Source of the DNA: Acidimicrobiales bacterium AG-410-I20 | GTDB taxonomy: Bacteria; Actinomycetota; Acidimicrobiia; Acidimicrobiales; MedAcidi-G1 | DNA: 37,187 nucleotides | Assembly (NCBI GenBank): GCA_949538625.1 | Contig: CATISD010000145.1 | Span: forward strand, 1-37,187 | Reading direction: 5' to 3' | Shown: positions 25,558-30,978 of the stretch, piece by piece | Numbering within the stretch: position 1 is the first letter of the stretch | Layout: each line of letters opens with the position of its first letter | Notes under the pieces: model-generated | Told to the model about the DNA's origin: nothing | The model's input: only the letters and a program-made list of their open reading frames with translations | The model's database searches: none | Position numbers and translations under genes: made by a program

Positions 25558-25815
25558 ATGAGCCGTGACGAAATTCTTAATCTTATAAGTGAAAGACTCG
25601 CAGACATTTTAGAAATAGAGACCCAGGAGATCGGAGAAGGGGATTCTTTCGCTGATGACCTTGAAGCCGACTCTTTAGCATTGATTGAACTAGTTGAAGC
25701 GATCGAAGAAGAGCTAAGTGAAAGATCTATCGGATTCCGATTTGAGGATGAAGACCTAGAAGATCTTAGAACAGTACGCGATGCGGTGGACTATGTCGTT
25801 TCTCGCCTTGGCTGA
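25558..25815 (+). CDS. acpP: Acyl carrier protein
   Basis: 'LADILEIETQEIGEGDSFADDLEADSLALIELVEAIEEEL' with DSL phosphopantetheine site. Start set to the ATG at 25558. Confidence 0.88.
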   Translation: MSRDEILNLISERLADILEIETQEIGEGDSFADDLEADSLALIELVEAIEEELSERSIGFRFEDEDLEDLRTVRDAVDYVVSRLG

Positions 25816-26533
25816 CAATTCTAGTCTTGCAGGGTCAGTGGAAAAACAGACCCAACAGATTGAGGATCTAGGTTACACATTTCAAGACATTGAGTTCCTT
25901 GCATCTGCCTTGACTCACCGTTCTTGGTGTGCAGAATTTGGTGGGACTTCTAACGAGCGCCTCGAATTTTTAGGAGATGCTGTATTAGGGCTAGTGGTAA
26001 CTCAAAATATCTATCTATCTAATCCAGATATTCCAGAAGGACAGTTAGCTAAAATTCGTTCTGCCGTAGTCAGTTCAAAAGCGCTTGCAGAGATAGCTGA
26101 ACAAATTGGTGTTGGTCAAGCGCTATGCCTTGGAAAAGGCGAAGAATCTTCAGGAGGCCGAAGTAAGTCTTCCATTCTGGCAGATGCTCTTGAAGCAATT
26201 ATTGGAGCAATTTATCTAGACGGAGGAATATCTTCAGCCACTGAGGTTATAGAGAGACTCTTCAAAGATGCAATTATAGAAGCCTCCATGGACCCTGGTA
26301 TTCACGACTACAAAACTCGCCTCCAAGAATTTTCTGCTCAACATTTTGGTGTAGCACCTACTTATCAAGTTGAAGCTAAAGGCCCAGATCATGATCGAGA
26401 ATTTTCTGCACTAGCACAAATTGAAGACCAGACTTTCGGTCCTGGTGCTGGGACTTCAAAGAAGGAGGCAGAACAAGAGGCAGCTCGAATTGCTTGTCAA
26501 GTATTAATCCCAGAAACAAATATCAATCGTTGA
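25781..26533 (+). CDS. rnc: Ribonuclease III
   Basis: 'ALTHRSWCAEFGGTSNERLEFLGDAVLGLVVTQNIY', 'ILADALEAIIGAIYLDGG', 'DYKTRLQEFSAQHFGVAPTYQV'. Start ambiguous; overlaps the acpP 3' end. Confidence 0.95.
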   Translation: MRWTMSFLALADNSSLAGSVEKQTQQIEDLGYTFQDIEFLASALTHRSWCAEFGGTSNERLEFLGDAVLGLVVTQNIYLSNPDIPEGQLAKIRSAVVSSKALAEIAEQIGVGQALCLGKGEESSGGRSKSSILADALEAIIGAIYLDGGISSATEVIERLFKDAIIEASMDPGIHDYKTRLQEFSAQHFGVAPTYQVEAKGPDHDREFSALAQIEDQTFGPGAGTSKKEAEQEAARIACQVLIPETNINR

Positions 26534-26543
26534 AAGAAGTATT

Positions 26544-27383
26544 GTGAGCACACCATTAGAACTTCCTGAAATAGAAATAATTCGGCGTGACCTTGAGAAA
26601 GATGTCGCCGGACGAAAAATTAAAAGTGTAGAAGTTTCTTCAATGAATCTTCTACCAAGATATAAAAGTCGGAAGGCATTTGTCGATGCGTTGTCAGGCC
26701 AAAAAATCAATTCCGCACGCCGCGCCGGTTTAGCTCTTGTTTTGATGATGAAAAATGATTATTTAGTCATGAAAATTGGAGAAGGTGCTTTCTTCGAACG
26801 TGTTCCTGCAAAAGCAAAGGTGACGAAAGGAACAGAGTTCACGATTGATTTCACGCAAGGAGGTCAACTTCGATTGGTGGACTCTGGAAAAAACTCTGAA
26901 CTTTGTGTAGTCCCAAGTGATGACCTATTTGAAGAGATGCCTGAGCTAAGAGGACTAGGTATGGACCCGATAGCAGATCCAATTCCTTTCCCTGCATTTG
27001 CAGGCGCAGTATTAGGACACTCGGTAGATTTGAAAGAACTACTTTGTGATGACGAAGTAGTTCTTGGGGTAGGAGATATTTACAGTGATGAGATTCTGTT
27101 TGCTGCTGGACTGAAGCACGATCGGGCGAGTGATTCACTCTCAACTCAAGAAATTCGCCGCTTACATCGTGCGCTAGTGGAGATCATCCATGAGGGGCTC
27201 CGATACCGTGGGACACACCTAGAAGAGCGGCCTTTCAACGATATTTTCGGAGTCCCAGGAACTTATCAAGAGCATCTGGCAGTCTATGGCCGCCATGGGG
27301 ACCTCAGCCAACGAAGTAGGGCCCCAATAAAGAGGAAAAAATATAAAGGCAGATGGACTTACTTCTGTGAAACACAGGTCTAG
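26544..27383 (+). CDS. Fpg/Nei (MutM)-family protein with degenerate active site and zinc finger
   Basis: GTG start; 'MSTPLELPEIEIIRRDLEKDVAGRKIKSVEV', 'VVLGVGDIYSDEILFAAGLKHDR', 'VYGRHGDLSQRSRAPIKRKKYKGRWTYFCETQV'; position between rnc and smc. Confidence 0.85.
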   Translation: MSTPLELPEIEIIRRDLEKDVAGRKIKSVEVSSMNLLPRYKSRKAFVDALSGQKINSARRAGLALVLMMKNDYLVMKIGEGAFFERVPAKAKVTKGTEFTIDFTQGGQLRLVDSGKNSELCVVPSDDLFEEMPELRGLGMDPIADPIPFPAFAGAVLGHSVDLKELLCDDEVVLGVGDIYSDEILFAAGLKHDRASDSLSTQEIRRLHRALVEIIHEGLRYRGTHLEERPFNDIFGVPGTYQEHLAVYGRHGDLSQRSRAPIKRKKYKGRWTYFCETQV

Positions 27384-27456: not shown

Positions 27457-30400
27457 GTGTCGTTTCTGGTGTTTCTTAAACGATTAACCATCAAAGGTTT
27501 TAAGTCATTTGCCGATGTGGCAGCGCTTGAAATGGAACCCGGCGTTACTGTAGTTGTTGGTCCAAACGGTTCTGGTAAATCAAACGTGGTTGATGCCATT
27601 GCCTGGGTATTAGGAGCACAAGCGCCGAGCGCAGTTCGAGCTCAAAAAATGGATGATGTTATTTTCGCCGGAACAGCATCAAAGCCGGCTTTAGGCCGAG
27701 CAGAAGTTTCTTTAACCATTGATAATGAATCTGGCCTGTTACCGATCGAATTTTCTGAAGTAACAATCACTAGAACGCTTTTTAGAAGCGGCGATAGTGA
27801 GTACTCGATAAATAATTCACCTTGTCGCCTTCTAGACATTCAAGAACTTCTTTCAGATGCGGGCGTTGGGCGCCAACAGCATGTGATTGTTTCACAGGGT
27901 CAAATAGACGCTGTATTGAATGCTCGACCCGAAGAAAGACGCATGATCATTGAAGATGCTGCGGGAATTCTTAAATATCGTAAGCGAAAGGAGAAAGCAG
28001 AGAGACGTCTTAAAGCAACTGAAACTAACCTCAATCGTCTTGGAGATCTTCAGCGTGAGGTAAGGCGCCAACTTCGACCATTAGAAAAACAAGCCGAAGC
28101 AGCTCGCCGTCATGGCGACTTGATTGGAGAACTGACTGCGTTACGTCTTTATCGCGCTTCAAAAGAGTTGACAGAACTTAGAGAACGCACACAGACAGAG
28201 GCAAAACAGAGAACAGATTTAACTCGCCAAGAAAGTGATTTAAAAGGTGATCTCTCACGACTTGACACAGAAGTAGTTTCGGCCGAAGCCGAGCTTTCAG
28301 CCCGTGGTGGAGATGAATTAAGTGATCAGTTAGTCCAACACGAGTCATTACGTGAAAGAGCAAAAGGCTTACGAGGAATCGTGATTGAAAGACTAAGAGG
28401 AATAGAAAATGATCGACGCTCTGCTAACTCCTATCAGATTGTTTTAGACCTTGAATCTGAAATAGCACGCTCCGAAGCAGAACTAGCAGCGATAGAGGTA
28501 GAAGTTGCCTCATTCACTCCCGAATCAGAACGTCTCTCTGTGTTAGAGGAAGAACTAAAAAAAGAACGAGATGCGTTTGGTCTGGAATGGGGAGATGGGA
28601 TGCCCGCTTCCGAAGGTCTAGCTTCTGAAGTAAGAGGGGAACTTGGGGCGCTTAGATCTTCAATAAATGAACTCAAAACCGAAAGAGACGGGGTATCAGA
28701 ACGACTGTCAATGCTTGATGCCTCCTATGCGCGATTAGATATAGAGGCAAGAAAGTTACGTGAAAGGCTTTCCGAAGGAGATGTAGTTGAAGAGCCTCTT
28801 GTAGCAGAAATGTTGGAAGTGGAGTCTCAAGCGAGCCAAAGTTCACAAGATCGAGATAGTGCATGGGAGCGTCTAGTTGCTGCAGAAGCAGAGTTAAGAA
28901 CTATTCGTGCTCGAGTTGAAGCTTTAGCATTAGCACTAGACGAAGCTCGTTCAAAAGCTGGCGCTAGTCATCTTGCCGAAATTGATGGCGTGCTGGGAAC
29001 CTTGCTTGATTTAGTTGAGATAGATGCGGGTTATGAATCTGCTTTTGAAGCAGCAGCTGGTGAAGCTCTTGACGCCGTAGTGGTTCAAGGGACAGATCAA
29101 GCGATCAAAGCTATAGAGGCTTTGAAACGCGGCAGTTTCAGTGCAGCAGTTCTGAGTCTTCATGGAATTACTTCAAATCTTGTGCAATCGGATATAGCGA
29201 CTTCAATCCGCCAGCATGTAAGGGCGCGTATGCCAGATGTAGATGAATTGCTAGACCGACTTCTTAGTCAAGTCGCTCTCGTTACTACTGGTAGTGCTGT
29301 GGCAATTGATTTGGCCATCGCTAACCCCGACACAATCATTGTTACAACGGACGGTGATCGGTTTGGGCCTTCAGGATGGAAGATAGGAGGGGGCCGAAGT
29401 GGGGCTACTGGAGCAGCGTTAGCTGAAGCTGAAATCCGTTTAGTAGCCGCTGAAATGGAAAGAACAGATGCAAAGTCAGCATTTGAAGAGGCTGAGAAGA
29501 GAGCAGCTGACTTAGATCAAGAAGTACATCGAGTAAACCAGTCGCTTAATGATCATGATAATGAATTCAGTGCAGCTGCAGAGGCGTTACAACAGTTGCA
29601 GTCTGAGCGCCGTGAATTAGCTGCAGAAATAAATAGTCTTCAGAATCGATCAAAAGAAATAACTAAAAGGATAGAAAATGAAACCGCTCGAGTTTCTGAA
29701 CTTGAAAAGCGTCTTTTAGAACTCGAAGAAGATGAGGAGAAACAGACTGAAGCCGCTCAGCGGATGGTTCAAGACCGTCATCAACTTGACAAAAAAATGG
29801 AAGAAATTTCTAAAAAGAGAACAGAACATGAAGTTCGATATGCGGATGTTGCCGCACGACAATCCTCAATAAACAAAAGATTAGATGATCAGAAAAATCA
29901 GTTGGCATCTCTGGAGGAGATACATTCTGAAGCTTCGGCCCAAAGAGAGCAGCTTGATAGACGTGAAACTATTAATAAACAAATTATTGAGGCTTTAGAT
30001 CTAGAAATCAGTGAAATTGAAATGCGTCTCAAAGATCTCCGTTTCGAGAGACAAAAACAATCAGATCGAGTGCAAGCTGCAGTAATCCGGTTAGATGGAA
30101 TTCGTCGTGAACGCTTGGAAAGCGAACGTGAGATATCTCAATTACGAGAGCGCCAATCACGACTTGAAATAGAAAGAGCGGAGACCAGATTACGTCTCGA
30201 AAACTTGGTGTCTAGAATTCGAACAGAGTTTGATAGAGAACCTGAAGCAATACTTGACGAGCCTCAACCAGAGCTCCCATCAGGAGTATCAGAGACCAAT
30301 AGAGTTTCTGAACTAGAGCATGACCTGAAGATAATGGGTCCAATCAATCCACTGGCATTAGAAGAGTTCGAAGCGCTCAATGAACGATACGAGTTTTTAC

Positions 30401-30978
30401 AAGAGCAACTTGAAGATGTTCGGGCGACTCGGCGCGAATTACGAAAAGTTATTCGTTCGATAGATGAAGAGATTGTAAGGGTCTTTTCTTCAGCGTGGGC
30501 AGAAGTCTCTGAGCACTTCACTAGTCTCTTCGGAAGCCTATTTCCGGGAGGAACAGGAGTGCTTCGGTTAACTGATACTTCAGATCTTTTGTCAACAGGA
30601 ATCGAGGTCGAAGCTCGCCCATCGGGGAAGAATGTCAAAAAACTTTCCCTCCTATCTGGTGGAGAAAGGTCGTTAACAGCTCTAGCTTTCTTGTTTGCTG
30701 TCTTTAGGAGTCGACCCTCACCTTTCTATGTCATGGATGAAGTAGAAGCTGCATTAGACGACGTTAATTTGCATCGCTTTCTTGGGCTCGTTGGACAATT
30801 CCGAGATGATGCTCAATTATTGATTGTTAGCCACCAAAAACGCACAATGGAAGCTGCAGATTGTTTGTATGGAGTCTCAATGGCACCAGGTGGCTCATCC
30901 CGTGTTGTAAGTGAAAGAGTTGAAAGACCAGAGATCAAATTAGAACCAGAAACGATGAAAACTGTAACAAACTCTTGA
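27457..30978 (+). CDS. smc: Chromosome segregation protein SMC
   Basis: 'LKRLTIKGFKSFADVAALEMEPGVTVVVGPNGSGKSNVVDAIAWVLG', long coiled coils, hinge region, 'LSLLSGGERSLTALAFLFAVFRSRPSPFYVMDEVEAALDDVNL'. Confidence 0.97.
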   Translation: MSFLVFLKRLTIKGFKSFADVAALEMEPGVTVVVGPNGSGKSNVVDAIAWVLGAQAPSAVRAQKMDDVIFAGTASKPALGRAEVSLTIDNESGLLPIEFSEVTITRTLFRSGDSEYSINNSPCRLLDIQELLSDAGVGRQQHVIVSQGQIDAVLNARPEERRMIIEDAAGILKYRKRKEKAERRLKATETNLNRLGDLQREVRRQLRPLEKQAEAARRHGDLIGELTALRLYRASKELTELRERTQTEAKQRTDLTRQESDLKGDLSRLDTEVVSAEAELSARGGDELSDQLVQHESLRERAKGLRGIVIERLRGIENDRRSANSYQIVLDLESEIARSEAELAAIEVEVASFTPESERLSVLEEELKKERDAFGLEWGDGMPASEGLASEVRGELGALRSSINELKTERDGVSERLSMLDASYARLDIEARKLRERLSEGDVVEEPLVAEMLEVESQASQSSQDRDSAWERLVAAEAELRTIRARVEALALALDEARSKAGASHLAEIDGVLGTLLDLVEIDAGYESAFEAAAGEALDAVVVQGTDQAIKAIEALKRGSFSAAVLSLHGITSNLVQSDIATSIRQHVRARMPDVDELLDRLLSQVALVTTGSAVAIDLAIANPDTIIVTTDGDRFGPSGWKIGGGRSGATGAALAEAEIRLVAAEMERTDAKSAFEEAEKRAADLDQEVHRVNQSLNDHDNEFSAAAEALQQLQSERRELAAEINSLQNRSKEITKRIENETARVSELEKRLLELEEDEEKQTEAAQRMVQDRHQLDKKMEEISKKRTEHEVRYADVAARQSSINKRLDDQKNQLASLEEIHSEASAQREQLDRRETINKQIIEALDLEISEIEMRLKDLRFERQKQSDRVQAAVIRLDGIRRERLESEREISQLRERQSRLEIERAETRLRLENLVSRIRTEFDREPEAILDEPQPELPSGVSETNRVSELEHDLKIMGPINPLALEEFEALNERYEFLQEQLEDVRATRRELRKVIRSIDEEIVRVFSSAWAEVSEHFTSLFGSLFPGGTGVLRLTDTSDLLSTGIEVEARPSGKNVKKLSLLSGGERSLTALAFLFAVFRSRPSPFYVMDEVEAALDDVNLHRFLGLVGQFRDDAQLLIVSHQKRTMEAADCLYGVSMAPGGSSRVVSERVERPEIKLEPETMKTVTNS

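Follow-up and report, generated by a model that had tools for sequence, protein, structure and literature searches.

The protein encoded between rnc and smc in Acidimicrobiales bacterium AG-410-I20 is a MutM (Fpg) homolog that has lost nearly all residues of the MutM active site and most of its zinc site, and the gene has nevertheless been kept intact. We put the chances at about even that the MutM gene at the rnc-smc locus of this class was turned, in place, into a pseudoenzyme that retains a noncatalytic, probably nucleic-acid-binding role. MutM is a textbook repair enzyme, for which we know of no established noncatalytic role. A lineage-wide, repeatedly evolved, conserved, and apparently dead MutM would render a second MutM function directly testable. 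The window, as the term is used here, is the whole stretch of 37,187 nucleotides that was analyzed (contig CATISD010000145.1 of assembly GCA_949538625.1, forward strand).

A MutM homolog between rnc and smc

The Fpg homology of the window protein is certain. Its matches to the N-terminal Fapy_DNA_glyco domain (PF01149; 57.3 bits, 3e-15) and to the H2TH domain (PF06831; 60.8 bits, 1.3e-16) both exceed the curated Pfam cut-offs, which places the protein in the Fpg/Nei superfamily. It also matches 32 MutM/Fpg sequences in the PDB (best 3.5e-35), with a full-length alignment to solved MutM chains. These matches and the flanking genes (Table 1) bear out an earlier note, made from the DNA alone, that had recognized an Fpg/MutM homolog between rnc and smc. 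The score against TIGR00577, the NCBIfam Fpg equivalog, is 166.7 bits, below the cut-off of 203.3.

Table 1. Coordinates of the features discussed, in window positions
Feature	Position	Strand	Remarks
mutM-derived putative pseudoenzyme gene, 279 aa	26544..27383	+	GTG start; 10 bases 3' of the rnc stop
rnc (RNase III)	25781..26533	+	Upstream neighbor in nearly all relatives
smc	27457..30978	+	Downstream neighbor in nearly all relatives; short gap
Leu5 codon, at catalytic N-terminal Pro2	26556..26558	+	42 degenerate relatives: L22, F11, Y5, T2, H1, V1; canonical: P46
Leu63 codon, at Lys60 (E. coli Lys57)	26730..26732	+	L in 40/42 degenerate relatives; K in 46/46 canonical copies
Gly115 codon, at Arg112 (E. 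coli Arg109)	26886..26888	+	Alignment
Asp178 codon, at Asn174 (E. coli Asn169)	27075..27077	+	Alignment
Arg229-Pro230-Phe231, loop capping the flipped base in MutM	27228..27236	+	Alignment
Zincless finger VYGRHGDLSQRSRAPIKRKKYKGRWTYFCETQV	27282..27380	+	Two Cys to Ser, fourth Cys lost; predicted hairpin, residues 263-267 and 270-274

The same note had stated that no usable start precedes the aligned proline. This held, as the GTG at codon 1 is the only in-frame start of the open reading frame and none other places Pro first. With a single start codon, a misplaced start or a shifted alignment that conceals the proline is ruled out. Pro4 of the N-terminal STPLELPE was considered as a displaced nucleophile and rejected, because it varies even within the genus (STS and SKS in relatives).

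A MutM that lies after rnc was also seen outside the class, in families f67, f101, and f109, with smc in view in most. The start codon of these copies (L275, L276, L278 to L280, L282 to L285, and L287 to L289) falls exactly at Pro2, and the other MutM motifs are intact in nearly all. An N-terminal proline is impossible in these proteins (M-ELPEVE) because the start is at the Pro2 position, in several directly after an in-frame stop; the amine of the Met would replace it.

Loss of active-site and zinc-site residues

Residues are given in Bacillus stearothermophilus MutM numbering, followed by the equivalent in the window protein. In addition to the substitutions at Pro2, Lys60, and Asn174 (Table 1), alignment showed that the phosphate-grip histidine is gone (His74 to Lys77), that Gln166 is also lost, and that the lesion-reading wedge is replaced (Met77 to Glu80, Arg112 to Gly115, and Phe114 to Asn117). 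Two of the zinc ligands have become serine (Cys249 to Ser255 and Cys252 to Ser258) and Cys269 is kept as Cys275, while the fourth, Cys272, is missing together with one deleted residue. Thus, the features expected of a MutM/Fpg enzyme, namely Pro2, the Lys60/Asn174/His74 set, the Met77/Arg112/Phe114 wedge, and the Cys4 zinc finger, were not found. Glu3 (Glu6 of the window protein), Glu6, Lys160, Tyr242, and Cys269 are retained. The motif comparisons of the earlier note, which had Pro, Lys57, HLGMSG, Arg109, and Asn169 lost, all agree with the aligned sequences; its claim that the zinc finger is lost stands for three of the four cysteines, with the refinement that Cys275 remains.

The same losses, which the note had proposed to look for across the Acidimicrobiia, recur in 42 deeply degenerate relatives. 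Pro2, Lys60, His74, Met77, Arg112, Phe114, Gln166, and Asn174 are all kept in 46 of 46 canonical locus copies, versus none of the eight in the 42 deeply degenerate copies (families f1, f7, f19, and f29), save Asn174 in 6, a contrast that is not due to chance. Both of the first zinc cysteines are substituted in these 42, Cys249 by serine in every one, and Glu3 and Glu6 are invariant across the set. Other families show partial loss. For example, 7 of 8 copies in family f9 still have Pro2, but Lys60, Asn174, and three zinc cysteines are gone from this family; families f10, f14, f15, f18, f21, and f33 and part of f40 have lost Lys60 and the wedge, with the zinc finger kept and Pro2 present in about half. 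Loss is therefore graded: lesion reading and the phosphate grip disappear before zinc and Pro2, which are lost in some lines only. One locus MutM (L059, genome G174) has an intact active site with a single one of the four zinc cysteines (CPRTK...YYSVSQV).

New conservation was found in the capping loop and the finger, where ten positions that are at least 90% conserved among degenerate copies carry a residue unlike the canonical majority. Newly invariant in the degenerate lineage are Arg229, which is absent in canonical copies, and Phe231 in the loop, and Leu254, Ser255, Trp271, Tyr273, and Thr277 in the finger. The finger also has invariant basic residues at Arg250, Arg257, Arg259, and Arg264 (window numbering), with Lys266 and Lys268 nearly so. 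Conservation of Arg264 (B. stearothermophilus numbering) and Asn174 is gone in the degenerate copies.

Retention, selection, and predicted fold

The gene was matched in 48 of 48 genomes of the window family with zero internal stops, although two of these genomes (G002 and G029) carry a partial gene and in a third (G022) it is split between two contigs. It is also conserved in ten other families of the order. Class-wide, a match at E <= 1e-20 was found in 299 of 395 genomes. Well over 100 locus copies from about 40 families were inspected, and canonical and degenerate copies alike had the order rnc-X-smc in almost every case with readable flanks. At the smc locus of ten divergent or incomplete genomes, Fpg was present in eight, two of which (family f34) had only the C-terminal part visible and another open reading frame before smc; in a ninth (G029) the contig ends inside the gene. 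No Fpg was detected near smc in L291 (G326, family f24), in which rnc is inverted relative to smc. The degenerate gene is therefore the locus MutM changed in place, as it occupies the same rnc-X-smc position as the canonical MutM of the class. The window gene descends, without having moved, from the MutM that the class ancestrally carried between rnc and smc, and is neither a stray copy nor a pseudogene.

The gene is under strong purifying selection. Pairwise omega was 0.02 to 0.05 within the genus and mostly 0.04 to 0.17 in other groups, with some pairs of family f9 higher, up to 0.43. In six of six groups, the median omega of the gene was similar to or lower than the rnc median from the same genomes. 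The dN/dS check proposed in the earlier note thus gave low values (mostly 0.02 to 0.17) comparable to those for rnc.

The note had also proposed an AlphaFold model. The full MutM fold was predicted with high confidence (pLDDT 94.5, pTM 0.90), a call that leans on canonical relatives because the input alignment of 49 rows had canonical zinc-bearing relatives among them. The two strands of the finger were predicted at a pLDDT of about 93, likewise from an alignment with zinc-bearing relatives among its rows. The nearest solved structures in a Foldseek search with the model were MutM-DNA complexes, with a TM score of 0.89 to 0.91 to B. stearothermophilus MutM.

The charge of the family's proteins has shifted: the mean pI is about 6.7 in the window family versus about 9.1 in canonical locus copies and 9.7 in the B-type MutM described below, and the net charge is about 8 lower than in canonical locus copies. 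About 20 basic positions are still invariant in the degenerate proteins, several of them newly so.

Independent origins of the degenerate state

In a tree of 96 locus copies from which the catalytic and zinc columns were left out, the degenerate state needed five changes, four of which were forced by well-supported branches alone. None of 200 bootstrap trees was compatible with one origin, and a constraint that united all degenerate rows was rejected (AU p 9e-65). The first group is a main clade of eleven families, the window family among them. The others are part of family f40, family f33, part of family f5 (G165, G153, and two named records), and G429, also in f5, in which Lys60, His74, Met77, and the Arg/Phe pair are lost and Pro2, Asn174, and the zinc cysteines are kept. 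Canonical relatives surround each group, which suggests that the direction of change was loss. The same disarming appears to have arisen about five times in the class. A single origin was initially considered, as a first tree that included the catalytic columns grouped copies from f33 and f40 with the main degenerate clade. It was dropped when these copies separated without the catalytic columns and with added relatives, and one clade was rejected.

A second MutM elsewhere in the genome

Of the 50 genomes on the tree with a degenerate locus copy, 46 were found to have a second, apparently intact MutM, versus 0 of the 44 with a canonical copy, of which about 34 were rechecked with all candidates scored and a few contig-edge fragments left unclassified. 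The class-wide search scored six candidates per genome and missed the B-type copy of G430, which was recovered later. The stronger other Fpg matches inspected from canonical genomes belong to distant subfamilies without MutM motifs. Among the second copies in the tally, that of G068 begins with Thr in place of Pro2. The B type, a canonical MutM away from the locus, was found nearly exclusively in families with degenerate locus copies and adjoins a parA-like gene in both f1 loci inspected. Other kinds of second copy were found in f33, G165/G153, and G429. Within family f40, the seven genomes with a second MutM have degenerate locus copies and the five without it have canonical ones. The exceptions in the tally, with a degenerate locus and no second intact MutM, are two rows of the window genus, G267, and G425; a further such case, G340, was not part of the tally. 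About 4 of 4 independent pairs point in the same direction, too few for p < 0.05.

No B-type MutM was found in the window genus. In the window genome (1.5 Mb, 85% complete), the only other Fpg-type gene seen lies on contig C131 (positions 1340-2119). Its protein keeps Pro2, Glu3, the active-site Lys, Met, and Arg, and Asn, and the gene is present in 8 of 8 genomes of the genus. The earlier note had suggested a check for a second canonical mutM; a second, different Fpg-type gene is there, with an unusual finger (CxxD...CxxH) and a score of 122.7 bits against TIGR00577, below the NCBI cut-off.

The subfamily of the C131 protein (MPEILEIE..., finger CxxD/E...CxxH versus four Cys) is widespread: at E <= 1e-45 it has matches in 122 of the 390 genomes searched in the class (relatives include L155 to L160, L162, L172, and L270). 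Further Fpg/Nei subfamilies of the class (L254 to L261 and L263 to L269; HLARGGW...TEKR or HLSQAG/HLMQGG...) keep the four cysteines and, where in view, the N-terminal proline, and the MutM wedge motifs are absent from them.

Comparison with known Fpg/Nei proteins

An Fpg-related fold without glycosylase residues is employed in RNA-linked work by NFACT-N/RqcH. That family is very distant from the window protein (weak H2TH match, E 0.15), which is instead a direct MutM ortholog. The window protein resembles MutM/Fpg (B. stearothermophilus 1r2y and 2f5q) in its predicted full-length fold, H2TH core, and Glu3/Glu6, and differs in the absence of eight active-site residues and the zinc site and in its sub-cut-off TIGR00577 score. 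Its hairpin, predicted without zinc, may be comparable to the zincless fingers of NEIL1 and of plant and fungal Nei; these proteins are active enzymes, and NEIL1 requires the finger for activity (PMC3188539 and references there). Mycobacterial Fpg2/Rv0944 is likewise an actinobacterial Fpg homolog; in M. tuberculosis it is truncated and lacks its N-terminal catalytic part, whereas M. smegmatis and M. avium have the complete protein (PMC2734929). The window protein is instead full length and substituted across many families. Mycobacterial Nei2 has an in vivo role independent of AP-lyase activity (PMC11323726), but Pro2, Lys51, and zinc are all in place in it and it is still an active glycosylase. 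Its K51A variant, at the equivalent of the Lys lost from the window protein, has neither lyase nor glycosylase activity, and its P2A variant retains glycosylase activity (PMC11323726).

No description of degenerate rnc-smc MutM proteins was found in the open literature, with most subscription journals outside the scope of the search. Fpg relatives that are dead or truncated are already known, as are zincless fingers; the surprise is repeated inactivation with retention. For many genomes of the class, naming the rnc-smc gene formamidopyrimidine-DNA glycosylase is probably incorrect.

Possible functions

Established MutM and Nei biochemistry suggests that the window protein would have neither base-excision nor AP-lyase activity. 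Loss of Pro2 alone would not end glycosylase activity, because Nei2 P2A keeps it, but both activities are presumably lost with the Lys60 equivalent, by analogy with Nei2 K51A. Among the points against the favored reading, Glu3, which Nei2 requires for glycosylase activity, is retained, and the window genus is without a B-type MutM, its C131 protein having an unusual finger and a sub-cut-off score.

The gene was disarmed, yet its deletion was not seen in degenerate lineages. Because the gene was disarmed about five times in the class and yet is strictly kept, its protein probably has another task, one that does not depend on catalysis. The locus MutM may have held such a second function, and where another gene could supply repair, selection on the active site would have relaxed and selection on the second function would have held. 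The nucleophile, phosphate grip, lesion-reading wedge, and zinc site could then have been lost. It is quite possible, if short of probable, that the rnc-smc MutM carries a selected nonenzymatic function across the class, in active enzymes too, and that this function is exposed where another gene handles 8-oxoG repair. If this is true, the roughly five independent inactivations would be natural separation-of-function experiments.

The likeliest form of this second function would be a non-excising nucleic-acid-binding or adaptor role without base flipping, for which the H2TH domain, the capping loop with its new invariant Arg229, and the zincless finger with its invariant basic residues are candidate surfaces. 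Nucleic acid is favored first and a protein partner second because of the new invariant loop and finger residues, the kept basic residues, and the lowered pI. The strictly conserved basic face of the finger is consistent with the DNA or RNA binding that the earlier note had suggested. Plain DNA binding is weakened by the fall in mean pI from about 9.1 to 6.7 and by the unconserved Arg264 (B. stearothermophilus numbering) and Asn174, and the residues that grip a flipped nucleotide are gone. It is conceivable, though on balance unlikely, that nucleic-acid binding was lost and that the protein is a protein-protein adaptor whose partner is RNase III, SMC, or the repair machinery, with the rim of the old DNA groove as its interface. 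The drop in net charge and the clustering of conserved positions in the C-terminal loop and finger would fit an adaptor, but not the roughly 20 invariant basic positions, several newly so. The permanent rnc-smc neighborhood would also fit but says little because it was inherited from active MutM.

Altered chemistry on nucleic acid, for example by a monofunctional glycosylase using Glu3, is improbable. In its favor, all deeply degenerate copies keep Glu3 and Glu6, Nei2 P2A retains glycosylase activity (PMC11323726), and MutMs of another class without Pro2 keep their other motifs. However, the losses include Lys60, whose equivalent is essential for both Nei2 activities, together with the wedge, His74, Asn174, and the zinc site.

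The co-occurrence of degenerate copies with a second intact MutM might indicate a modulator of canonical MutM, such as a competitor or hetero-oligomer partner. This is decidedly improbable, as the window genus, G267, and G340 keep a degenerate copy without a second MutM, and MutM acts as a monomer. Retention of the reading frame for a reason in cis, with the protein itself irrelevant, is hard to credit: the 10-base gap to rnc and the short gap to smc could reflect translational coupling or read-through transcription to smc, but protein-level constraint is as strong as that on rnc, new residues have become invariant, and the predicted fold is intact.

An early-decay pseudogene or an assembly error, to which the active-site losses and a genome fragmented into 149 contigs might point, is scarcely credible, given that independent assemblies of 42 relatives show the same losses, that purifying selection is strong, and that internal stops are absent from the family, and the pseudogene reading is ruled out by omega and retention. 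The proposal of the earlier note that the intact open reading frame has been repurposed rather than left to decay is strongly supported by retention, omega, the new invariant residues, and the predicted fold.
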